A DNA stretch of 64,000 nt from Aphrocallistes beatrix. Its lineage: Eukaryota > Porifera > Hexactinellida > Sceptrulophora > Aphrocallistidae. Location of the stretch: positions 1,656,986 through 1,720,985 of the forward strand of contig OY725488.1 of assembly GCA_963281255.1 (NCBI GenBank). The letters run 5' to 3'. The translations under genes and the position numbers were made by a program. The notes beneath the pieces are model-generated. The model was not told the DNA's origin. It did no database searches and worked only from the letters and a program-made list of their open reading frames with translations. This document shows, piece by piece, positions 18,335 to 60,800 of this stretch (within the stretch, counting starts at the first letter, position 1; each line of letters starts with the position of its first letter).

Positions 18335-20749
18335 ATGGATCTCTCTCAGCACTTCATGCTCTACGACAACATTCCCGCAAGTCTGCAGGCAACCGACGAG
18401 AACTCTGAAAATGAAGTTCCCAGCAAGCCCTCAATTCTGCAGATTTCAATGGAAAATCAACTAACTTCGAATCCTCCTTACCTGAGCAAGCATTTACTCT
18501 CTCCTAACTCGAAACAAATCGCCAAGAAGCAACGTCGGTCCAATAACCAAGCAGTGTTCGCCTGGCTGGACGACAACTATGAGTTGAAGGAGGATGAGTG
18601 CTTGGCTCGTAGTGTAATGTATAACCATTACCTTGACTACTGCAAACGCAATGCGATATTTCCTGTCAGTCCGGCTTCTTTCGGGAAGATTATCAAACAG
18701 AAGTTTCCAGAACTGAAGACACGGCGGCTTGGTACGAGAGGACAGTCTAAATACCATTACTATGGCGTCTCTATAAAGTCTGGGTCTCTCTACTACAGAT
18801 CCTCTGAGCACAAGAACGGCCTGTCTCGCTTCTCCACTTCAATAGGCAATGGCATCGGCACTCCACTTACTCCCAAGAGTAAAAAGGACAATTCTTCTGT
18901 TTGCTTTCCTAACGTCAAACTGAGAACGCCTCTCCCAGACTTCCCAGACACTTCTTACCTCGACCTTTCCCCGCCCTCTTACAAGACCAAGCTGGAAACC
19001 TTCATGATCATGTACCGCACTCACTGCCAGCGCATAATGGACTCGGTGATCCGCGCTAACTTCGAGGAGGTGAATGACTTGATGGTCCACTTCTGGCAAG
19101 GCATGCCTCCGCACATGTTGGAGGTCCTCAACTACTCCATCACTCTGCACATCATCACCATCTGTGATATCATGCTGTATCGCGTATTGGGAGAAGTCCT
19201 CATTCCAGCTTCACTGCAGGCTCTACCTGACTCTCTTCTCTCAGATATCAAAGACTTCGCTTTGAATATCAAAGAATGGCTATTTGAAGCCCTATCCGAC
19301 CTGCCTGCTACGCTAATGATTAGGAAGATTGAACTAGCCAAGAGCTTCTCAAAGATTTTGATCCGTCAGACCACTCTCGTGATGTTAGCGCAGACGGCTC
19401 GCGGGGTACTGAGAAACTGTGAGTCAGTCTCTATCATGCTGGAGGACTGGAGAGGGATTAATTTCCGTGACATAGCAGTAAGACTTACGTTTTTCAATCA
19501 ACCTGCCCAGTCAGAAGAGAATGATCTTGTTCGACTCATCTGCTACGAGCTGGAGAGTCTCTTCGTCAAACAAGCCCCTCTCGACCTCTATCTGGAATGG
19601 ATCGACTCGATGATCAACTCGCAAGTCGTGCTTCCAGCTGCGTCTAACATCAATAGCTTCAGGGCTAAGAGTAGGCGGTTTTTGCTAGAGTGGTTTTACA
19701 TTGGAAGAATCATAGAGGAAGAAATGACAATAAAGTCTGCTCCTAGCTTCGGCTGCTTCCGGCTGCTCTACTTGATGCTATCCGAGTACGTATTCTACAT
19801 CATTGAACACCTGATCTACCAGAAGATCGAGAAAGGATATGAAGACGTCCTGCGAGAAATTTTCATAGCACACAATCCCACTCAGCAGCCACTTGAAAAG
19901 ATTCCGACTCGGAGCATAGAGATCATAGTGCCCGGGGGAGACCTCTCTCCGGGGCTGGACGAGCGCATTCTCCCTTTCTCAGAAGAGTATCACTCATCCA
20001 GGAACTATCCGACAGGCATCCTCTCTTATCCAGTTTTCTCCAAGATTCCATTCACGGAATGCGCTGCTGTAGAGAAGAATTCAGAGAAATTACCAATCGG
20101 TTTCCCCTCTGGCTCTTCTAAGAATATTGTTACTGAGCCTGTGATCAACTCAGATTTCCCCTCCCCTATAGTTCAATCTGTCCCCATCGATCCAACAAGG
20201 GGGGTGTTCAGATTCGACTTTCCTCGGATTCTTCCTCACCACGAGAGATTAAAAATTCCAGTCTTAGCTAACAACCCATCACTTCACGTCCATCAGAATA
20301 ATGATTCCTCCGACACACCCTCATCCCGTCGTTCTCCCACTTGTTTCCGCCCTGCCAATTCTCTCTGCATCAATGAATCGATTGACAGACAAGGCTCAAT
20401 TTCAAATGAGGTTTTTAGCAATGATTTGTCTTACCCTCCTGGATTTGATTATTCTGATGATTGCTACTCTCACAGTGATCTCTCTGACATGCATGACCCA
20501 CCAACAGCCATTCCTCAGTCATTATTTCCACAGAAACAGTTTTCTTTCCATCCCCGCAGTCTCCAGGAGGAAAGTCCATTCCCTCCACCTGGGATCAACA
20601 AACTCCACCCCTCAGCCTCTCACCCTTACGTCCTCGCCTCAGAGCCTGCTCGAGACCACGCTCTTCAATCTGCCGTTTTAAATTCAGGGCCAATGATCAC
20701 TTCGGCTCGTCTAGTTTACCCCTCTGGGATGGCGAACCCAAACTTTTAA
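18335..20749 (+). CDS. RFX-family transcription factor (RFX4/6-type)
   Basis: 804 residues in one coding exon. The winged-helix DNA-binding domain spans about 72-154 and includes the family signature RRLGTRGQSKYHYYG, which contacts X-box DNA. Residues about 215-510 form the extended dimerisation region (YRTHCQRIMDSVIRANF, HFWQGMPPHML, LEDWRGINF, SAPSFG), closest by eye to vertebrate RFX4/RFX6. The C-terminal 270 residues are Ser/Pro-rich and probably regulatory. RFX factors drive ciliary and secretory-lineage genes in animals. CTTCGCTAG just before the ATG could be a 3' splice site, so an upstream non-coding exon is possible. AATAAA lies at 21066-21071. The large intronless coding region is unusual for RFX genes. 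Confidence 0.93.
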   Translation: MDLSQHFMLYDNIPASLQATDENSENEVPSKPSILQISMENQLTSNPPYLSKHLLSPNSKQIAKKQRRSNNQAVFAWLDDNYELKEDECLARSVMYNHYLDYCKRNAIFPVSPASFGKIIKQKFPELKTRRLGTRGQSKYHYYGVSIKSGSLYYRSSEHKNGLSRFSTSIGNGIGTPLTPKSKKDNSSVCFPNVKLRTPLPDFPDTSYLDLSPPSYKTKLETFMIMYRTHCQRIMDSVIRANFEEVNDLMVHFWQGMPPHMLEVLNYSITLHIITICDIMLYRVLGEVLIPASLQALPDSLLSDIKDFALNIKEWLFEALSDLPATLMIRKIELAKSFSKILIRQTTLVMLAQTARGVLRNCESVSIMLEDWRGINFRDIAVRLTFFNQPAQSEENDLVRLICYELESLFVKQAPLDLYLEWIDSMINSQVVLPAASNINSFRAKSRRFLLEWFYIGRIIEEEMTIKSAPSFGCFRLLYLMLSEYVFYIIEHLIYQKIEKGYEDVLREIFIAHNPTQQPLEKIPTRSIEIIVPGGDLSPGLDERILPFSEEYHSSRNYPTGILSYPVFSKIPFTECAAVEKNSEKLPIGFPSGSSKNIVTEPVINSDFPSPIVQSVPIDPTRGVFRFDFPRILPHHERLKIPVLANNPSLHVHQNNDSSDTPSSRRSPTCFRPANSLCINESIDRQGSISNEVFSNDLSYPPGFDYSDDCYSHSDLSDMHDPPTAIPQSLFPQKQFSFHPRSLQEESPFPPPGINKLHPSASHPYVLASEPARDHALQSAVLNSGPMITSARLVYPSGMANPNF

Positions 20750-30100: not shown

Positions 30101-30387
30101 AAGAAATATCAGCGACGAAACATCCGGGACAAACATCCGGCGACGAAACATCCGGTGAAGAAACATCCAGCGACGAAACGTCCGTTATTCCTCTTCAACA
30201 TGAGTAATTGGTAACTGATGAGCATTTTCTCCTGACAAGATTGGAAGTAGTTGTTGGACCAACATAAACACATTAGTTGATGCTCGTGTTGTGATATTTT
30301 TCGCCATAGAAATCAAGGTGTATGCTGTATGATTGTTTGCAAATTTGATATTTTGCAATAAAGACGGATACAAGAATATACTTGTAC

Positions 30388-30833
30388 CAGTTCATTTGGT
30401 TGAACTCTAGATTTCCGGTTCCTTCCTTCCCTACTCGTTGTATCAATTTCATGTCAGGTAACTTGAAGTAGAATACAGTATGCTTATTAATATCACTGAC
30501 ATACAGATTATCATTCTGTATCGCTATGCACCATGGATTCATAAATGATTGTTTACCAAATGACTTGATATATTCTACAGTTTGTGAGAATACTGAAACA
30601 CGGGAATTATTGAATTCTGCTACGAATATATTTCCACTTCTCTCCTCTACAGTTACTCCTACAGGACCATCAAGTTTTCCAGGATCACTGCTTTTCTTAG
30701 CAACAGTTACAACAGGTTGGAATGCAACATAAATATCGCGTACAACTTCACTAATCTTTCCTATTTCTTCTATTTCTTGTTCAACAGAGTTAGAGGGATT
30801 TCGGGGTCTAACTGAATTGTGGAATCTGGTGGA
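30388..30833 (-). CDS. NHL-repeat protein fragment (exon or remnant)
   Basis: An open frame of about 149 residues encodes consecutive NHL/beta-propeller blades: KLDGPVGVTVEERSGNIFVA, EFNNSRVSVFS, then MNPWCIAIQNDNLYVSDINK and KEGTGNLEFNQ. An EIEEIGKISEVV segment precedes them. The pattern (GPxGVxVxxxGNIFVAExxNxRVxVFS) is that of TRIM-NHL type propellers. A possible acceptor (AATTCAG) lies near 30815 and a possible donor (CTG/GTACAA) at 30388, so it could be one internal exon. I could not find adjacent exons, and repeats flank it closely, so a relic is equally likely. Propellers of this type usually bind proteins or RNA. Confidence 0.5.
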
Positions 30834-37227: not shown

Positions 37228-37647
<420 letters not shown>

Positions 37648-44570: not shown

Positions 44571-47500
44571 ATGTACGAAGAGAATCCGAGTAACAGCGAG
44601 GATTCTAATACGCCACCTCTTGAAACCCAAAGTGATGAAGAACCAGCATTCTATTTTGAAACCCCTGTTTCACTCATCAAATCAAAAACTAGCCCAAATC
44701 CCTACCTTGACAATTTCAACGAATATGCTTCTACAACTACTTCTCTTAATCTCAAGTCTTCTACACATTTCCCCTTGAATTCTCAGCTCAATACTCACCC
44801 TGTTTCCGAGTATGATCTTAAGACCATAGGGCCAGGATTAGCTTTGGTTCTACTATTTGAAACTGCTGAGTCTGACCTCATTCAAGCCAGATTAATGTCA
44901 AGCAAGATAGAGAAAATTCTAAATTTTTTTAATTTCGCGACTAAGATCATTGACACAATTGAGTTAAAAGAAGGAAGAGTTGATCCATCTAAGAAAGTTC
45001 CCTCTTCTGCCTCATCTAGGACCAAATCCTTTTCTACTCTTTTTGGCGATGCTCTCAATTCAATTGAAGCAGCTCCCTATAGCTGTGTGGTCCTATTTGT
45101 AATAGGCCAATCGGTACCTGACAAGGAATCTAGGGGTATTCTCAGTTTTAAGATCCCTGAAGGATTGGACACGAAAACTGTTATTTCTCATAAATATATC
45201 ACTCAGAAGATAGTCAATACTCTATCTCATTCCAAACACATTAAACCAGGACTTCTTTTCTTTAACTACGTCTCTCAGCAGAATTCTCCGCTAACTCCAG
45301 AGAGGAACATCTGCCCTAATACTTTCTTCTCTTACACATCTCTTTTGATGAACTCTCTTCCTCATGGAGTCAAACCTCATCAATTTATAGTTTCATTCTA
45401 TGAAGCTCTCAGAGATGCTCCGCCTCAATCCCAGCTTTCAAATATTTTTCTTCAAGCAAGGGAGAAATATTTTGATAACCTTGGAACTGATAGCGTATTC
45501 TTTGTTAAAGATACTCTAAGAGAGCCGTTTTACTTTCGGAGAGTTGCTCCCATTCAAGATACAGCTATAAATATATCGCAAGATGCTCCAGGATTATTCA
45601 TGTTATTGACGAATGAGAATTTCATGCAGAGAAGGTGGAGTTTTATCCCAGAATTAATTGAAAGCATCAAGAAGGAATTCGAATTAATGAATTTCACAAT
45701 CACTCAAGATATCTTGTTAGTTGGAAAGTCAAGCTACACTCAGACCCTTGCTAAAAACAAATCTTTGTGCCAAAATTGTAGGTGTGTCTTTGTCCTCATT
45801 CTTACCTCAGATGGCGAACCTCATAAAGTTTCCCTAAAAGACAAAACTTTTCTTAAAATAAACATATTTTCACATGAGTTAGCCAATTCATTTCCGGACA
45901 TACCGAGAGCGATTTTTCTAAGCCAAGTTGTGAATCAAGAGAAGAATTTAGATGTTAGCGCCTCTCAGTCAATCTCTTCACCTATCGATGTCGATACTTA
46001 TCAGAACTTGTTTCTAGTCCACTCTGTGGAAAAGAATCTCTCAGGGGCAAACAACTTTCTGCTAGCAAACCTCTCCTTAGCAATGCAACGGAATTACTTT
46101 GCTGAATTGCATTCAATTTGTTATAATGCTATTTCCCAATCTAACAAAACTTCATTCATTCAAATAGTTGATGGTCTGAGAAAGAATTTCTTTTTCAACT
46201 CTCAAGATCTATCATCTCCAATCTTTAATAAGGAGAGTGAGAAATATAAAAAAGCTTATAATCTAGCTTGCATACAAGGGTCTGAACCTTTTCGATTCTA
46301 TCGTTTGATGGTTGTAGGCCCTGAAGGGGTGGGAAAAACCTCTCTACTCCGCTCTCTCACTGGCCTACCTTTCAAATTTGATCAGGAGAGTACTCCATTT
46401 TTGAACAAGTTTGATCTTCAAGTCCACAAGATTTCTCATGGATGGGATCAAATCGAAGACTTAGATACTTATGCGAATAACCTGGAGGATACAAGGCAAG
46501 ACATGGCTGTAAAGTACGCTCGGGGCTTGTTGGATTCAACAGTCACCGATACAGCCGAGGGAAATTTGTTGTATGGAGAAATAGCAAGTGAGGATATTAA
46601 AATAGAAGTTAATTCAAGTTCTGAAACAACAGATCCTTCACAGAGAACCTATGTCTCTTCACAGTCATTTGGAGAAGAAACCAAACAAGAATATGATGAC
46701 ACTGCTTCTATGCCTAATTTTGATAAGAGTAAGGTTCAAGAGATTGTGGATATCCCATCGTCTGACGTAGACTTCATCGAATATCCCCCAAGACCCGACT
46801 TAACAGCTGCAGAACTTGAATATTCAAACTTCTTTCCTGAACAAAAGATCCGTGCCAACCTCATCGGAAGTGATGAATTCTCTTCTAAGTCCGATTTCCT
46901 TACGGCCTGGGACTTTGCAGGTCAAAATTACTTGTATTGCTTCCACTCCCTCTTTCTATCACCACGCGCGATCTATTTGCTATTGATTGATTTATCAGTT
47001 GAGGACCTGACAGCAGATATCAACGTGCGGAAAGAAAGGATGGACCGAATAGATCTCAGATCACAGGTCGGTGTTCCCAATACCTATTTGGAAGCAATTG
47101 AATTTTGGTTGGATGCGATTTTTTCTGTTAGTAAAACAGCTTCGACAGACATCTATCAGAGGCCAGCTAAAGTTATTTTTGTATTCAACAAGTCAGACCT
47201 TGTTGAGAATCCGAGACTCAGAGCCGAAGCTCATCTAGATACTGTCAGATCCCATATGAATAAGAGAAACAATTCTTTCAGTCTAGTTCACGAAGATGAT
47301 GGGATTTTTCTTATTAGCTGCATTCCTGATTCTCCCTTTTCCTCCAATATTGCAGATCTTAAGAATACTATTAAGCATCAGTCAGATCAGATTGCATTCC
47401 ACCAGCCTATCCCCATCAAATGGCTGGAATTTGCTAAGGTTATTCTGCGTGATGAGCAACCGATTCTCGGTTCTAAGAGAATTCACTATTTGGCTGAATC

Positions 47501-49667
47501 CTGCCAGTGTTCAGAAGATTTAGAACATTTTTTGCATCTATTCCATGATATCGGCTTCTTCTTTTTCAAACAAGGGAAGATAATCAAAGACGTTCAGAAA
47601 TTTCTCGATTTAATCTATAACATTGTATCACCGCAATATGGTACTGAGTTAGTAGAATATATTCCGAATAAGGATATTGAACTACTAAAAAGAGATTTGA
47701 AAATGTGCCATGAAAGAGCTGAATTGTCTTCTACCCTTTTTGACGCCATATTGAAATCATTAAATTTATCTATTTTAAGAGAATCTATCCTCTCTCTATT
47801 ATTGATATACGGGATTCTAATTTCAAACCAAGCTGTACATAGAGTTTCAAATTATTTTTATGTTCCATACCTTCTGACTGGATCATTTAAATATATTTCC
47901 GAACTTTTACCCCCGCACTATGCTATATCTAGCTTTTACTTATATTTTCCTGACGGATTTATTCCAGCATCACTCTACTTCACTCTCTTATCCAAATGTA
48001 TCCACCGGAACGAAGAGAAGGGGCAACCTCTGCCCAAGCTCGGATTTGACTGTGCATATTTTTACATTTGTTCTTCCGTTTTGGTTTCTATTGACTCTTG
48101 CAAAAGGAAACCTTATATCAGAGTTATATTTTCAAAGATAGGAGATGTCACAAAAGGCAATTCTATAGTTGATGGGTATGTCAGATCAGAAATAATGAGC
48201 TATTTAGTATTCCTCCAAATGCTCATTGTAGACATTCAAGCTAAACTTATACCATGTGGCAATCTGGCAAAAGTTGTTTTGGATTGCATTTGTGGGAGAT
48301 TGCCAAATATGGAGCAGGTAGAACAGCCTTGCATTTGTTTAGATCAACTCTTACTTACAAATGCTAGAGCTAGGGAATCCTGGTGCTACAATCAACAATG
48401 TAAAGTAGATTGGAATCACTATTTCAACGACAACGATTTTCTTCTTGACTACATGACGAAATTCTATGATAATACTTCTTTAGCTAAGTTCATTATTGAT
48501 CACCAGGACACCTTCATCACACACATTAATTGCATTGATTTATCTTCTCTCCTCTATCGATTTGGTCTTGTAACCAGTGAAAGGATTTTTGATAACATGA
48601 GATATACCCAGTGTGAAAATGCGGCGAGTCTCTTAGAAGAACTTGTTCATAAGGGCTCGCTATGGGCGATTAAATTCTATGTGGTATTATGTAGAGAATA
48701 CACTAACCCTGGACATCAATTTCTCCGTAGCCTTTTAGACAAAAACATCAGTACTGGTCTCATCAAACCATTATCACACAATATCAGTCAGCCAATTGAT
48801 TCGATGCTGTATCATGATCGATATCGAATGAATTCCAACCCCCATGGAATTGCCTTTTTACTCAATATTGAATCATTTGCATCTGACCAATCTCCGATAA
48901 GAAAAGGTTCTAGGTGGGATCTTATTTCTCTTCGTCAAACGTTTGAGCAGCTACAATATGTGGTGGTGACGAGGGAAAACTTGGCTAGATCTGAGTTAAA
49001 GAAGGAATTATTTAGGCTAGCACATCTCGATCATTCTTCTTATGATTCTTTATTTTGTGTTATTATGTCTCATGGGGATGAGAATGATAACATAATATTA
49101 TCTGATGGGAAGAAAATATCAATTGAAGAAATAACTTGTGAATTTTCTCATACCTATTGTTCTTCTCTTGCTGGTAAACCCAAAATTTTTATTATACAGG
49201 CATGTAGAGGTTCTAAAATTGAAGTTTTACAGAAAAATGATGAACAAAAAGATAACTCCTATTATAGGCAAATAGCAAAGAAAAATACTAATATGAACCC
49301 GACAGTTTTTGCTTCGGACAAAAGACAATCTGAAACGTTTGACCTCGAAAGCGGTAAACTTCATCCTGTTATCCAACCCTTGAGACAAAGACTTGTTTCG
49401 TTTGGTTCAATTGAAGAGGAACCAGAAATATTATCGGAGGTTTCAGACATTTTCATAGCTAATTCTACTGTACATAGATATGCATCGTTTAGGAACACTG
49501 CTAAAGGTTCAATATTTATTCAATCTTTTTGTTTAGTTCTACGATATTGCCGGTATGAAGAATTCATGCATATAATGACTGAGGTGAGAAGAAGAGTTTC
49601 TCTATATCAAACACATACCCAATGCACAGAGGATATCAGTCATTTGAGGAAGAAATTGTATTTTTAA
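44571..49667 (+). CDS. Pseudocaspase x2 - Roc-COR GTPase - CARD - active caspase
   Basis: 1698 residues in one exon. Residues 86-325 and 339-545 look like complete p20+p10 caspase folds without catalytic residues: SHG is IGQ or TSDG, and QACRG is NYVSQ or SQVVN. Residues 571-945 are a Roc-type GTPase: P-loop GPEGVGKT (583-590), DFAGQ (781-785), NKSD (873-876), with a 170-residue acidic insert. Residues 946-1240 match COR (IPIKWLEFAKVIL, FHDIGFFFF, FYLYFPDGFIPASL). Residues 1300-1392 resemble a CARD (LLEELVHKGSLWAIKFYVVL). Residues 1408-1698 are a full caspase: IMSHGDEN (His1501), IIQACRG (Cys1545), p10 YASFRNTAKGSIFIQ, ending RKKLYF. By analogy with ROCO proteins and CARD-caspases, GTP-dependent assembly would activate the protease; that is inference. 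TTTTTATTAG just before the ATG suggests an upstream non-coding exon. AATAAA lies at 49801. Confidence 0.9.
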   Translation: MYEENPSNSEDSNTPPLETQSDEEPAFYFETPVSLIKSKTSPNPYLDNFNEYASTTTSLNLKSSTHFPLNSQLNTHPVSEYDLKTIGPGLALVLLFETAESDLIQARLMSSKIEKILNFFNFATKIIDTIELKEGRVDPSKKVPSSASSRTKSFSTLFGDALNSIEAAPYSCVVLFVIGQSVPDKESRGILSFKIPEGLDTKTVISHKYITQKIVNTLSHSKHIKPGLLFFNYVSQQNSPLTPERNICPNTFFSYTSLLMNSLPHGVKPHQFIVSFYEALRDAPPQSQLSNIFLQAREKYFDNLGTDSVFFVKDTLREPFYFRRVAPIQDTAINISQDAPGLFMLLTNENFMQRRWSFIPELIESIKKEFELMNFTITQDILLVGKSSYTQTLAKNKSLCQNCRCVFVLILTSDGEPHKVSLKDKTFLKINIFSHELANSFPDIPRAIFLSQVVNQEKNLDVSASQSISSPIDVDTYQNLFLVHSVEKNLSGANNFLLANLSLAMQRNYFAELHSICYNAISQSNKTSFIQIVDGLRKNFFFNSQDLSSPIFNKESEKYKKAYNLACIQGSEPFRFYRLMVVGPEGVGKTSLLRSLTGLPFKFDQESTPFLNKFDLQVHKISHGWDQIEDLDTYANNLEDTRQDMAVKYARGLLDSTVTDTAEGNLLYGEIASEDIKIEVNSSSETTDPSQRTYVSSQSFGEETKQEYDDTASMPNFDKSKVQEIVDIPSSDVDFIEYPPRPDLTAAELEYSNFFPEQKIRANLIGSDEFSSKSDFLTAWDFAGQNYLYCFHSLFLSPRAIYLLLIDLSVEDLTADINVRKERMDRIDLRSQVGVPNTYLEAIEFWLDAIFSVSKTASTDIYQRPAKVIFVFNKSDLVENPRLRAEAHLDTVRSHMNKRNNSFSLVHEDDGIFLISCIPDSPFSSNIADLKNTIKHQSDQIAFHQPIPIKWLEFAKVILRDEQPILGSKRIHYLAESCQCSEDLEHFLHLFHDIGFFFFKQGKIIKDVQKFLDLIYNIVSPQYGTELVEYIPNKDIELLKRDLKMCHERAELSSTLFDAILKSLNLSILRESILSLLLIYGILISNQAVHRVSNYFYVPYLLTGSFKYISELLPPHYAISSFYLYFPDGFIPASLYFTLLSKCIHRNEEKGQPLPKLGFDCAYFYICSSVLVSIDSCKRKPYIRVIFSKIGDVTKGNSIVDGYVRSEIMSYLVFLQMLIVDIQAKLIPCGNLAKVVLDCICGRLPNMEQVEQPCICLDQLLLTNARARESWCYNQQCKVDWNHYFNDNDFLLDYMTKFYDNTSLAKFIIDHQDTFITHINCIDLSSLLYRFGLVTSERIFDNMRYTQCENAASLLEELVHKGSLWAIKFYVVLCREYTNPGHQFLRSLLDKNISTGLIKPLSHNISQPIDSMLYHDRYRMNSNPHGIAFLLNIESFASDQSPIRKGSRWDLISLRQTFEQLQYVVVTRENLARSELKKELFRLAHLDHSSYDSLFCVIMSHGDENDNIILSDGKKISIEEITCEFSHTYCSSLAGKPKIFIIQACRGSKIEVLQKNDEQKDNSYYRQIAKKNTNMNPTVFASDKRQSETFDLESGKLHPVIQPLRQRLVSFGSIEEEPEILSEVSDIFIANSTVHRYASFRNTAKGSIFIQSFCLVLRYCRYEEFMHIMTEVRRRVSLYQTHTQCTEDISHLRKKLYF

Positions 49668-49915
49668 ATTCACTTGATTGCGTTATGGATATAAATAGTT
49701 CATACTTGTAGAATATTTTATCTTAATTTTTGTTATTCCAAACATAAATTTAAAACATACTCGAGATTTGACTCGAAGTATTGAAGTGTTTTAATTGAAT
49801 AATAAAGTACACCCTCGCTAATCCGAACAACTCTGTACCATTGAACCAAAAGAAGTTCGAATTAGTGAATTTGTTCCGATTAGTGAAATAACACTAATTC
49901 AATGGGGTATTATTA

Positions 49916-57800: not shown

Positions 57801-60800
57801 ATACCATTTAGTGGCGGGCCGCAATACAGGGGCGTGCACTCGGGATGGGTATAGATAGAGGCATTTTGGAGAGATTGAAGCAGGAAACGCGGGCCGCCTG
57901 TTGGACAGCGCTGGTCTAAGGCATTCACTTTACAAGTATCACAAACACTCACAAGTGTTTTAATAACATTGAAATAAATACAATTGAAATCTAGTTGTCA
58001 AAAATTATAAATCTCGGTGCTAAATAACAAAAATGTGGGTGTTTTTACAACATAGCTATGTGTGTGTAGTAATAGAATGTACTTATATAATATTTAGACT
58101 AAATATCCACTATACGAAATAGCCATTATACGAAAAGTCCATTATACCAAATGTCCGTTAGACTAAATGTCCGTAGACGAAATGTCCGTATACCAAGTGT
58201 CCGATTACCCTTATTCGCAGCATCGCACAAGTCAGCATTTTAGCTGTTCACTCGATTAATGCGTACCTCGTTTAATACGGACTCGCTTAATACGTGCCTC
58301 GAATTATATTATCAAATATATTATCAGGGACGCGAATACAAATTTCGACTCGTGGATTATGCACACGGATAAGACGTACCTCGATTAGTGCTGTACTTAC
58401 TTTTTCCTGATACACCTTAACGGTTCTACTGTATATATGCATATGCATATTCAGGTGTGCTTTGCTTGCTAGAGCTCCGCGGCCAGTGAACACTTTGTGT
58501 CCACATGAGACATCCTGCGAGTACCTATTATATTGCTTATAGTCAGAGCATTGATAGAGTGTGCTCCATTTGAAATTGTAGGAGCGCGCATACTGAACCG
58601 AACTCTTTTAAACAACATTCAATATCATATTTTCCTGATATACTAACATTTTCTCATTGTTTTATCTCTGAAATTTGATTATAGGTTAAATCCAAATTGA
58701 AAGAGCGTCTTAAGATAAAAAAGACAGTCCCATTACTCTTAATATACAAACTACCCACCTCTTCTAGCATCCTGGGAAATTGTGTATTAATTTCAATTTT
58801 ATAAAAGAGTTAGCAATGCGCTCCTTCATTTTATAAGAGAGAACGGAGTTGACTCATTTTTAAAATTCGTAACTGGAGCGATTAATACTCTGCTAAGGGT
58901 CTGCTTAATTTTGGAATGTTTAATTATATCTAACACAGTGCACATTTTTTTCAACTAAGTTCTGACTTATTTATTTCTTTTAGATTCTCCTCGCTCTATT
59001 GTCAAGAAAAAGTATCGAGAATTAAGTCTTTTATACCATCCAGATCGTCCCACAGGGAACAAGACTAAATTTATGGCTGTAGCAAAGGCTTATGAGATAC
59101 TTAAAACACCTGAAAGTTACGAAGATTTCTTAAGGCATGGTTTACCTGATAGTCGACAGCCTACTAAAATCGTTTTTGCTCTGCCTAACTTTTTTTCAGA
59201 TAAAAAGTATTCTGTTTGGATCATTCTGGTATATGGTTTATGTTTTCTTATCCTTCTTCCTTCAATTATAGGTGTATGGTGGTACCGATCAATTAAATAT
59301 GATGGCAATCAGGTTAGAGTGCATTTTTAAATTTTGTTATAAATGACATTTCAATCCTAAAGTTAAAATTATATGTTAAATAATTTCGGTACGATTAGCC
59401 AAATAAGGAAATCAGAAAATGTTGCGTCTTTATATCTTGGTAATTAGCATACCGTATTGCTTCGAATAAGCGCCCGGGCGCTTATTTATTTCGTTCACCC
59501 TTTAGACCCGGCGCTTATTCAAACCGGCGCTTATTCAAGCCCCGGCGCTTATTTTTTTCATTCGCTATTTTGACCTGGCGCTCTTTTTTTTGTTTACTAC
59601 ATTGACTGGCACTTTTATTTTTGCCACAACTGAGAATTTAGTTCTATTAAAAAAGGATAATGTAATGTTTCAAAAAAGCACTTGTATCTATGCCACTACT
59701 GAGAATACTAGTTTGATATGATGTTCAGAGAACTAAAATGCCCCGGCGCTTATTCGAGCCCCGGCGCTTATTCAAGCCCCGGCGCTTATTCAGGGAAATA
59801 CGGTATATGCATGTATAATATTGTGGGTTTTTGTAGTCTACAAGCACGCTTCGCTTGCTTGCGCTCCGCGGCTGGCGGACACCTTGTGTCCGCTGAAGGC
59901 GCCCTTTGGGCGTCTAGGCTCAAATTGATTAATTATAAGCTGGATAACATCTTTAAATATGTATGTCTTACTGTTATCATCAATATCACTCGAAAAATCA
60001 CCAAATTTGTCAATTTTTGATGCGTAATGATCAACATTTTTTATGAGAAAGTATCATATGCGAAGAATATTAATATACACATTCTATTAATATTTCAGCC
60101 TTCTATCACCCAAATGGCTGAGTTTAGTCGAAAAACTGAAATTTCTAATTATAAAATAAGTGACAATAACGTCATAATTCCATGATGAGTCTACATTTTC
60201 GTCTGAGCTCAGAACTTAGTTGAGCCATAGCCAAAAGACTCCCCCATTCCAAAAATCAGCTTTCTGTGCGTTGCAGTTTCTTCAATCAATTCGTTATAGA
60301 TATCCTTACTATTAAAACTCGATTAATGTTTAAATATATACAAGCGAGCTTCGCTTGCTTGCGCTACGCGGCTGGCGGACACTTTGTGTCCGCCGCAGGC
60401 TCCTTTCGGTCGCCTGGGGTCACATTGATTAATTATAAGAGAGATAATATCTCTAAATATGTCTGTCTTACTGTTAAAATCGATATCACTCGAAAAATCA
60501 CCAAATTTGTCAATTTTTCTGTATATATATATATATATATACAAGCCCGCTTCGCTTGCTTACGCTGCGCGGCTGGCAGACACTTTGTGTCCGCCGGAGG
60601 CTCCCTTCGGTAGCCTGGGGTCACATTGGTTAATTATAAGGGATATAACATCTCTAAATACGTCTGACCTACTGTTATAATCTATATCGCACGATAAATC
60701 ACCAAATTTAACAAATTTTAATTTTTTTGATGAGTAATGATGACGTCATAACAAAGTGATGAGTCATCATTTTTCGATGATAGTTACATCATGCGTGAGA

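Follow-up and report, generated by a model that had tools for sequence, protein, structure and literature searches.

A glass sponge gene encoding two pseudocaspases, a Roc-COR module, a CARD-like domain and a caspase in a single open frame

The window analysed here, a stretch of 64,000 nucleotides of the glass sponge Aphrocallistes beatrix (contig OY725488.1; C1:1656986-1720985 of a 100.5 Mb genome in 28 contigs), contains on its forward strand a gene of 1698 codons plus stop in one open frame (44571..49667). The frame starts with an ATG within a stop-to-stop frame of 1716 codons, and the chance of a frame this long at the local base composition is about 10^-51.6. An AATAAA at 49801..49806 (+), 134 bases past the stop, is a possible polyadenylation signal by its position only. 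The encoded protein presents the domain order pseudocaspase - pseudocaspase - Roc - COR - CARD-like - caspase. A first-pass annotation, made from the letters of the DNA, had proposed both the single frame of 1698 codons and this order; the frame analysis bore out the former, and sequence profiles together with the predicted caspase fold the latter. A named orthologue spanning the same extent is present in the glass sponge Oopsacas minuta (P0003, 1689 residues).

It is very improbable that two adjacent genes or exons have been read here as one, or that the locus is a pseudogene. One relative, P0007 (1550 residues, 87% of the query), has an end unlike that of the other relatives and could be taken as a sign of such an artefact, but the Oopsacas protein and three more relatives of 1660-1680 residues share the C-terminal end of the window protein, and its paralogues also lie in long open frames. 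Single-exon genes are moreover common in glass sponges, with 12,409 single-exon transcripts for 19,578 genes in Aphrocallistes vastus and 9,872 for 16,340 genes in Oopsacas, according to the accessible text of PMC10282587; therefore, a single exon of 5.1 kb is not odd.

The C-terminal caspase domain (residues 1416-1698; 48816..49664, +) carries the catalytic dyad, His1501 (49071-49073, +) and Cys1545 in the motif QACRG (49203-49205, +), and structure prediction gave a caspase fold. Among the aligned proteins that have a residue at these sites, the His is kept in 47/47 and the Cys in 46/46. Two further residues, Arg1444 and Arg1641, align with Arg residues of caspase-3 that form the P1-Asp pocket, and are kept in 49/49 and 43/43 proteins. 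The large- and small-subunit parts are separated by a long linker (49224-49442, +). The Pfam scan of the window protein showed no NACHT and no protein kinase domain.

The Roc GTPase domain (residues 572-930; 46284..47360, +), with its G1, G3 and G4 motifs at 46317-46343, 46911-46925 and 47187-47198 (all +), scored 35.2 bits with Pfam Roc for a cut-off of 27. A Roc profile built from the same genome matched in the PDB the Roc domain of LRRK2 (E 4e-10) and CtRoco (3dpu, E 1.1e-7). In the proteins with a residue at the site, the P-loop Lys (Lys589) is kept in 51/51, the G3 Asp in 52/52 and the P-loop Thr/Ser likewise throughout, and the G4 Asp (Asp876) is kept in 53/53. Between G1 and G3 lies a long insert (residues 650-770; 46518..46880, +) of low model confidence, with a pLDDT (predicted local distance difference test) below 50 in model residues 105-202 (protein 659-756). 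In one paralogue (L035:1121-5206, +) the Roc-internal insert consists of many copies of a short repeat (like SDPIxSSTIQ) in a long array, with an extensin-like Pfam match below cut-off.

The COR domain directly follows (residues 940-1245; 47388..48305, +). Its profile matched 42 public Roc-COR proteins with E 8.7e-20, and with E 1.9e-20 the 41 left after removal of P0037, which was left out of the comparison because it may itself belong to the Roc-COR-caspase family. The match to six ROCO loci of the same genome was weaker (E 2.1e-4, probability 46%), and Pfam COR-A was weakly found in 6/28 family members (best 3.9e-5) and not in the window protein. In a second structural comparison caspase matches filled the list, which makes it uninformative on Roc or COR. 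The protein thus shows two features of the ROCO family, a Roc domain and, by profile, a COR directly behind it.

Between COR and caspase, a CARD-like domain (residues 1306-1378; 48486..48704, +) was delimited by alignment to the Pfam CARD of a paralogue, with a profile match of E 1.4e-8. The homologous segment is a Pfam CARD above cut-off in four of eight paralogues (L029, L030, L031 and L036). Initiator caspases have this layout, with a CARD immediately ahead of the protease. These data bear on whether the GTPase could be the output and the caspase its regulator, self-cleavage freeing or ending a ROCO signal with no cell death, which we consider quite unlikely. Possible cut sites lie in the long low-confidence Roc insert and in the long caspase linker, and conservation of the P-loop Lys and of the G3 Asp equals that of the caspase dyad; against this, the caspase retains the two pocket Arg besides the dyad, and the CARD stands where an initiator caspase would have it.

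Upstream of Roc, pseudocaspase domain 1 (residues 84-325; 44820..45545, +) and pseudocaspase domain 2 (residues 338-555; 45582..46235, +) were recognised by profiles and in the predicted structure. Domain 2 aligned with 201 columns of a caspase profile (E 9.5e-12) and domain 1 with 115 columns, all in the large-subunit part (E 1.8e-7); the small-subunit parts alone gave weak matches (E 0.042 and 0.0011). The catalytic Cys is missing at the aligned site in 28/28 proteins in both domains. The predicted structure of residues 1-570 had a mean pLDDT of 63 in the best of five models and of 48-56 in the rest; its caspase matches run from residue 72-85 or so to 543-550, with 179-211 residues aligned, and include 3h11, the zymogen caspase-8:cFLIP-L complex. 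Together, profiles and predicted fold support a caspase fold without catalytic residues for this pair, which would probably function much as cFLIP does, either as a sensor or as a regulatory partner. A domain-swapped arrangement, the large part of domain 1 packing on the small part of domain 2, was set aside, the model confidence being too low. The N-terminal tail (residues 13-46; 44607..44708, +) has a pLDDT of about 25-36. It holds a short motif, TPP ... KSKTSPNP or a close variant, that recurs among relatives of the window type and is a possible docking or phosphorylation site.

In this way the two N-terminal pseudocaspases and the intact His1501/Cys1545 dyad announced by the first-pass annotation both stood. 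It had also anticipated Roc-COR and caspase folds; the caspase fold was recovered by prediction, and Roc-COR was supported by sequence profiles.

The annotation had considered this one gene only. It belongs to a multigene family. Of 58 caspase-domain matches listed in the genome, 15 loci around matches in longer frames were fetched, and 8/15 have the order from Roc to caspase, with 28-43% identity to the window protein over the main aligned stretches. At least nine Roc-COR-caspase genes are therefore present, the window gene included and shorter frames left out. The paralogue L033 shows 42.7% identity over residues 775-1698 and matches residues 365-675 too. On C18, L029:1300-6513 (+) encodes NACHT - Roc - COR - CARD - caspase within a single 1738-residue frame, that is, with two NTPase domains (Pfam NACHT, E 6.3e-10), and other members start close to Roc. 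At L042 (C7:527274-527937) the frame stops inside the caspase and the remainder follows in another frame four bases on, possibly through a frameshift, an intron or an assembly error. A stretch of about 109 kb (C17:338779-447685) holds 25 of the 58 listed caspase-domain matches, including the Roc-COR-CARD-caspase genes L030, L031 and L036. A NACHT search of the genome, in which 94 out of 176 candidates were scored, listed at least 94 matches. Open frames of 1000 residues or more hold 73 of these, so that NACHT proteins form a large family encoded in long frames without interruption.

Three protein searches were made, in two of which scoring was confined to the candidates with the most words in common, and most matches came without a source name; the only named source of proteins with both Roc and caspase domains was Oopsacas minuta. 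With residues 550-1698 as query, 28/32 matches had both domains, the window protein counted. Over these residues P0003 is 64% identical, and a second Oopsacas protein, P0009, showed 44% identity; the members found in Oopsacas go by the names 'Caspase-3' (P0003 among them), 'caspase-3' or 'Caspase-3-like'. A profile of ten members yielded 88 proteins among the candidates scored. Both domains are present in 27, a caspase alone in 2, and Roc alone in 3 members of the family; the other 56 have Roc and no listed caspase domain, and include proteins of corals, bivalves and echinoderms and the possible family fragment P0037. The COR-CARD-caspase part of L031 gave 14 matches among the candidates scored, 12 with both domains, again counting the window protein.

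A midpoint-rooted tree of 52 of the 53 aligned proteins (P0032, with coverage below half, was excluded) gave a NACHT type (9 proteins), a window type (6), a type with long pseudocaspase chains (8), types whose chain begins near Roc (10) and a further 19, none of which comes from the fetched loci of this genome. NACHT is present in 9/9 proteins of its group, namely L029 and eight public relatives, one of them in Oopsacas. Leucine-rich repeats ahead of Roc are weakly indicated. Considering that the NACHT, window and long pseudocaspase groups each contain proteins of this genome and of Oopsacas, these three groups probably predate the split of the two sponges, as far as the tree can tell.

These data suggest a constant switch-CARD-protease core with exchangeable N-terminal inputs: two pseudocaspases, a NACHT domain, or a chain that begins near Roc; because the N-terminal module is swapped on a constant core, the layout reads as input, switch and effector. 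Initiator caspases are activated by bringing caspase domains together. We favour, with a probability of roughly 0.55, the hypothesis that the window gene encodes a self-contained initiator-type caspase of glass sponges, in which Roc-COR and CARD would control dimerisation within one chain. The resting protein would be inactive, held by the nucleotide state of Roc-COR and by the N-terminal module. A signal on the latter would alter the nucleotide state, and a COR-COR contact, aided by a CARD-CARD contact, would then bring two C-terminal caspase domains together. The first-pass annotation inferred activation by GTP, but the switch could run the other way: the bacterial CtRoco is mainly a monomer in the presence of GTP and a dimer when nucleotide-free (accessible text of PMC6337361), and by analogy GTP could keep the window caspase off.

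Several observations weigh against this hypothesis. The G4 Asn is found in 3/53 proteins only (T in 23, S in 27), and the G3 Gly is lost in 2/53; members without this Gly may, judging from their sequence, be unable to hydrolyse GTP. The COR-only profile retrieved from the PDB unrelated chains only, at E 0.17 or worse. The CARD of the window protein is divergent and gave no Pfam CARD match, and the CARD profile had no significant match among solved structures, DDX1 being on top (E 0.22) and seven Apaf-1 CARD entries following at E 0.31-0.42. In the pseudocaspases, a His is present at the aligned site in 1/27 proteins for domain 1 and 1/28 for domain 2, in neither case the window protein, and in 3/28 domain 1 sequences a Cys lies one residue ahead of the aligned site. 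Lastly, an APAF1_C match on C11 (E 3.6e-6) means that a conventional apoptosome may exist beside the Roc-COR-caspase genes. An exon by exon search with Pfam NB-ARC gave 0 matches in the genome and had suggested that Apaf-1 was lost and replaced by Roc-COR; this idea was dropped, as the APAF1_C match argues against it and the Apaf-1 winged-helix model matched nothing in any genome, controls included, and is uninformative on such a loss. A search for Bcl-2 yielded a single match, which fell short of the curated cut-off.

The same G4 and G3 changes would fit a Roc-COR that turns over little nucleotide and acts as a structural scaffold, other CARD proteins recruiting the CARD-caspase while the scaffold only sets its geometry. 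Such other CARD proteins exist, as of nine CARD matches in the genome four lie in confirmed Roc-caspase loci, one beside a caspase match with stops and four elsewhere. We nevertheless regard the scaffold as unlikely, the P-loop Lys, P-loop Thr/Ser and G3 Asp being kept wherever the residue is present. The long frames L044 (C11) and L045 (C10) hold the best CARD matches of the genome; the part of them that was read shows no further Pfam domain, and they are possible CARD partners.

The self-contained initiator-type caspase can be compared with known systems. ROCO proteins with death-fold domains, such as DAPK1 and those of Trichoplax, are alike in their Roc-COR core, death-fold domain, large multidomain chain and occurrence in several copies. 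The Trichoplax proteins carry CARD or death domains (PMC4104024), but in the accessible text of that paper 'caspase' occurs only within 'caspase recruitment domain'; in DAPK the effector is a kinase (PMC8195603, accessible part), whereas the window protein has no Pfam kinase. The caspase-9/Apaf-1 apoptosome and the caspase-1 inflammasome resemble it in the CARD beside the caspase and in an NTPase platform driving proximity activation, with NACHT appearing here in one sister group. In both, however, the NTPase, an ATPase, and the protease are separate proteins, Apaf-1 joining caspase-9 through CARDs (PMC6321704, accessible part), whereas the window protein has its Roc-COR in the same chain. The amphioxus 'shortcut' hybrids TNFR-caspase and LRR-caspase fuse a receptor or sensor to a QACXG caspase, with cDNA support reported for the former; they differ in having no Roc-COR, and 'roc' has 0 occurrences in the accessible text (PMC2575513). 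In cFLIP-L/caspase-8, as expected here, an inactive caspase domain regulates an active one, but in the window protein two pseudocaspases and the caspase share one chain. An NTPase switch coupled to variable effectors is also found in bacterial AP-GTPase and STAND/caspase conflict systems, with caspases among the effectors of related systems (accessible parts of PMC8195603 and PMC7159879), but the domain sets differ.

No description of a Roc-COR-caspase protein was found in the open PubMed Central (PMC) literature searched, in agreement with the earlier claim that no family of this domain order had been described. The accessible texts of PMC3196919 (amphioxus caspases), PMC11508797, PMC2246300 and PMC6321704 contain no such architecture. 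A paper on NLRs of the sponge Dysidea avara lists COR and caspase among the domains of its Figure 2 legend, with an order that is not readable there, and reports no bona fide NLR for the glass sponge A. vastus (PMC12909245, accessible part); a relative in this demosponge is possible.

The brittle star protein P0103 (Amphiura filiformis, 647 residues) has protein kinase and caspase Pfam domains listed together. In the window, another long single-frame gene encodes an uninterrupted 804 residues with RFX DNA-binding and RFX BCD domains (18335-20749, +). Further neighbours are a core histone (37231-37647, -), an NHL repeat (30276-30833, -), DnaJ (58959-59327, +) and BORCS7 (2222-2653, -).

In apoptosomes and inflammasomes, sensor, adaptor and protease are normally separate proteins. 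In the window gene a caspase and a Roc-COR switch are joined, an arrangement retained in three groups of genes common to a second glass sponge, where annotation as 'Caspase-3' hides it. ROCO proteins and initiator caspases are both known kinds; what seems new is their joining. Far more tentatively, such one-chain platforms of sensor, GTPase timer, CARD and protease might run part of the cell-death or immune response of glass sponges, the dead caspases of the window protein acting as a lure: an inhibitor or protease that a pathogen directs against caspases would trip the switch, in the manner of an integrated decoy of plant NLRs, with the NACHT ATPase as sister input; we hold this to be doubtful. 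With this gene, direct measurements of how nucleotide state, dimerisation and protease activity are coupled could be made on one protein, and it may inform how LRRK2-type Roc-COR switches signal to a covalent effector, and what pseudocaspases do.
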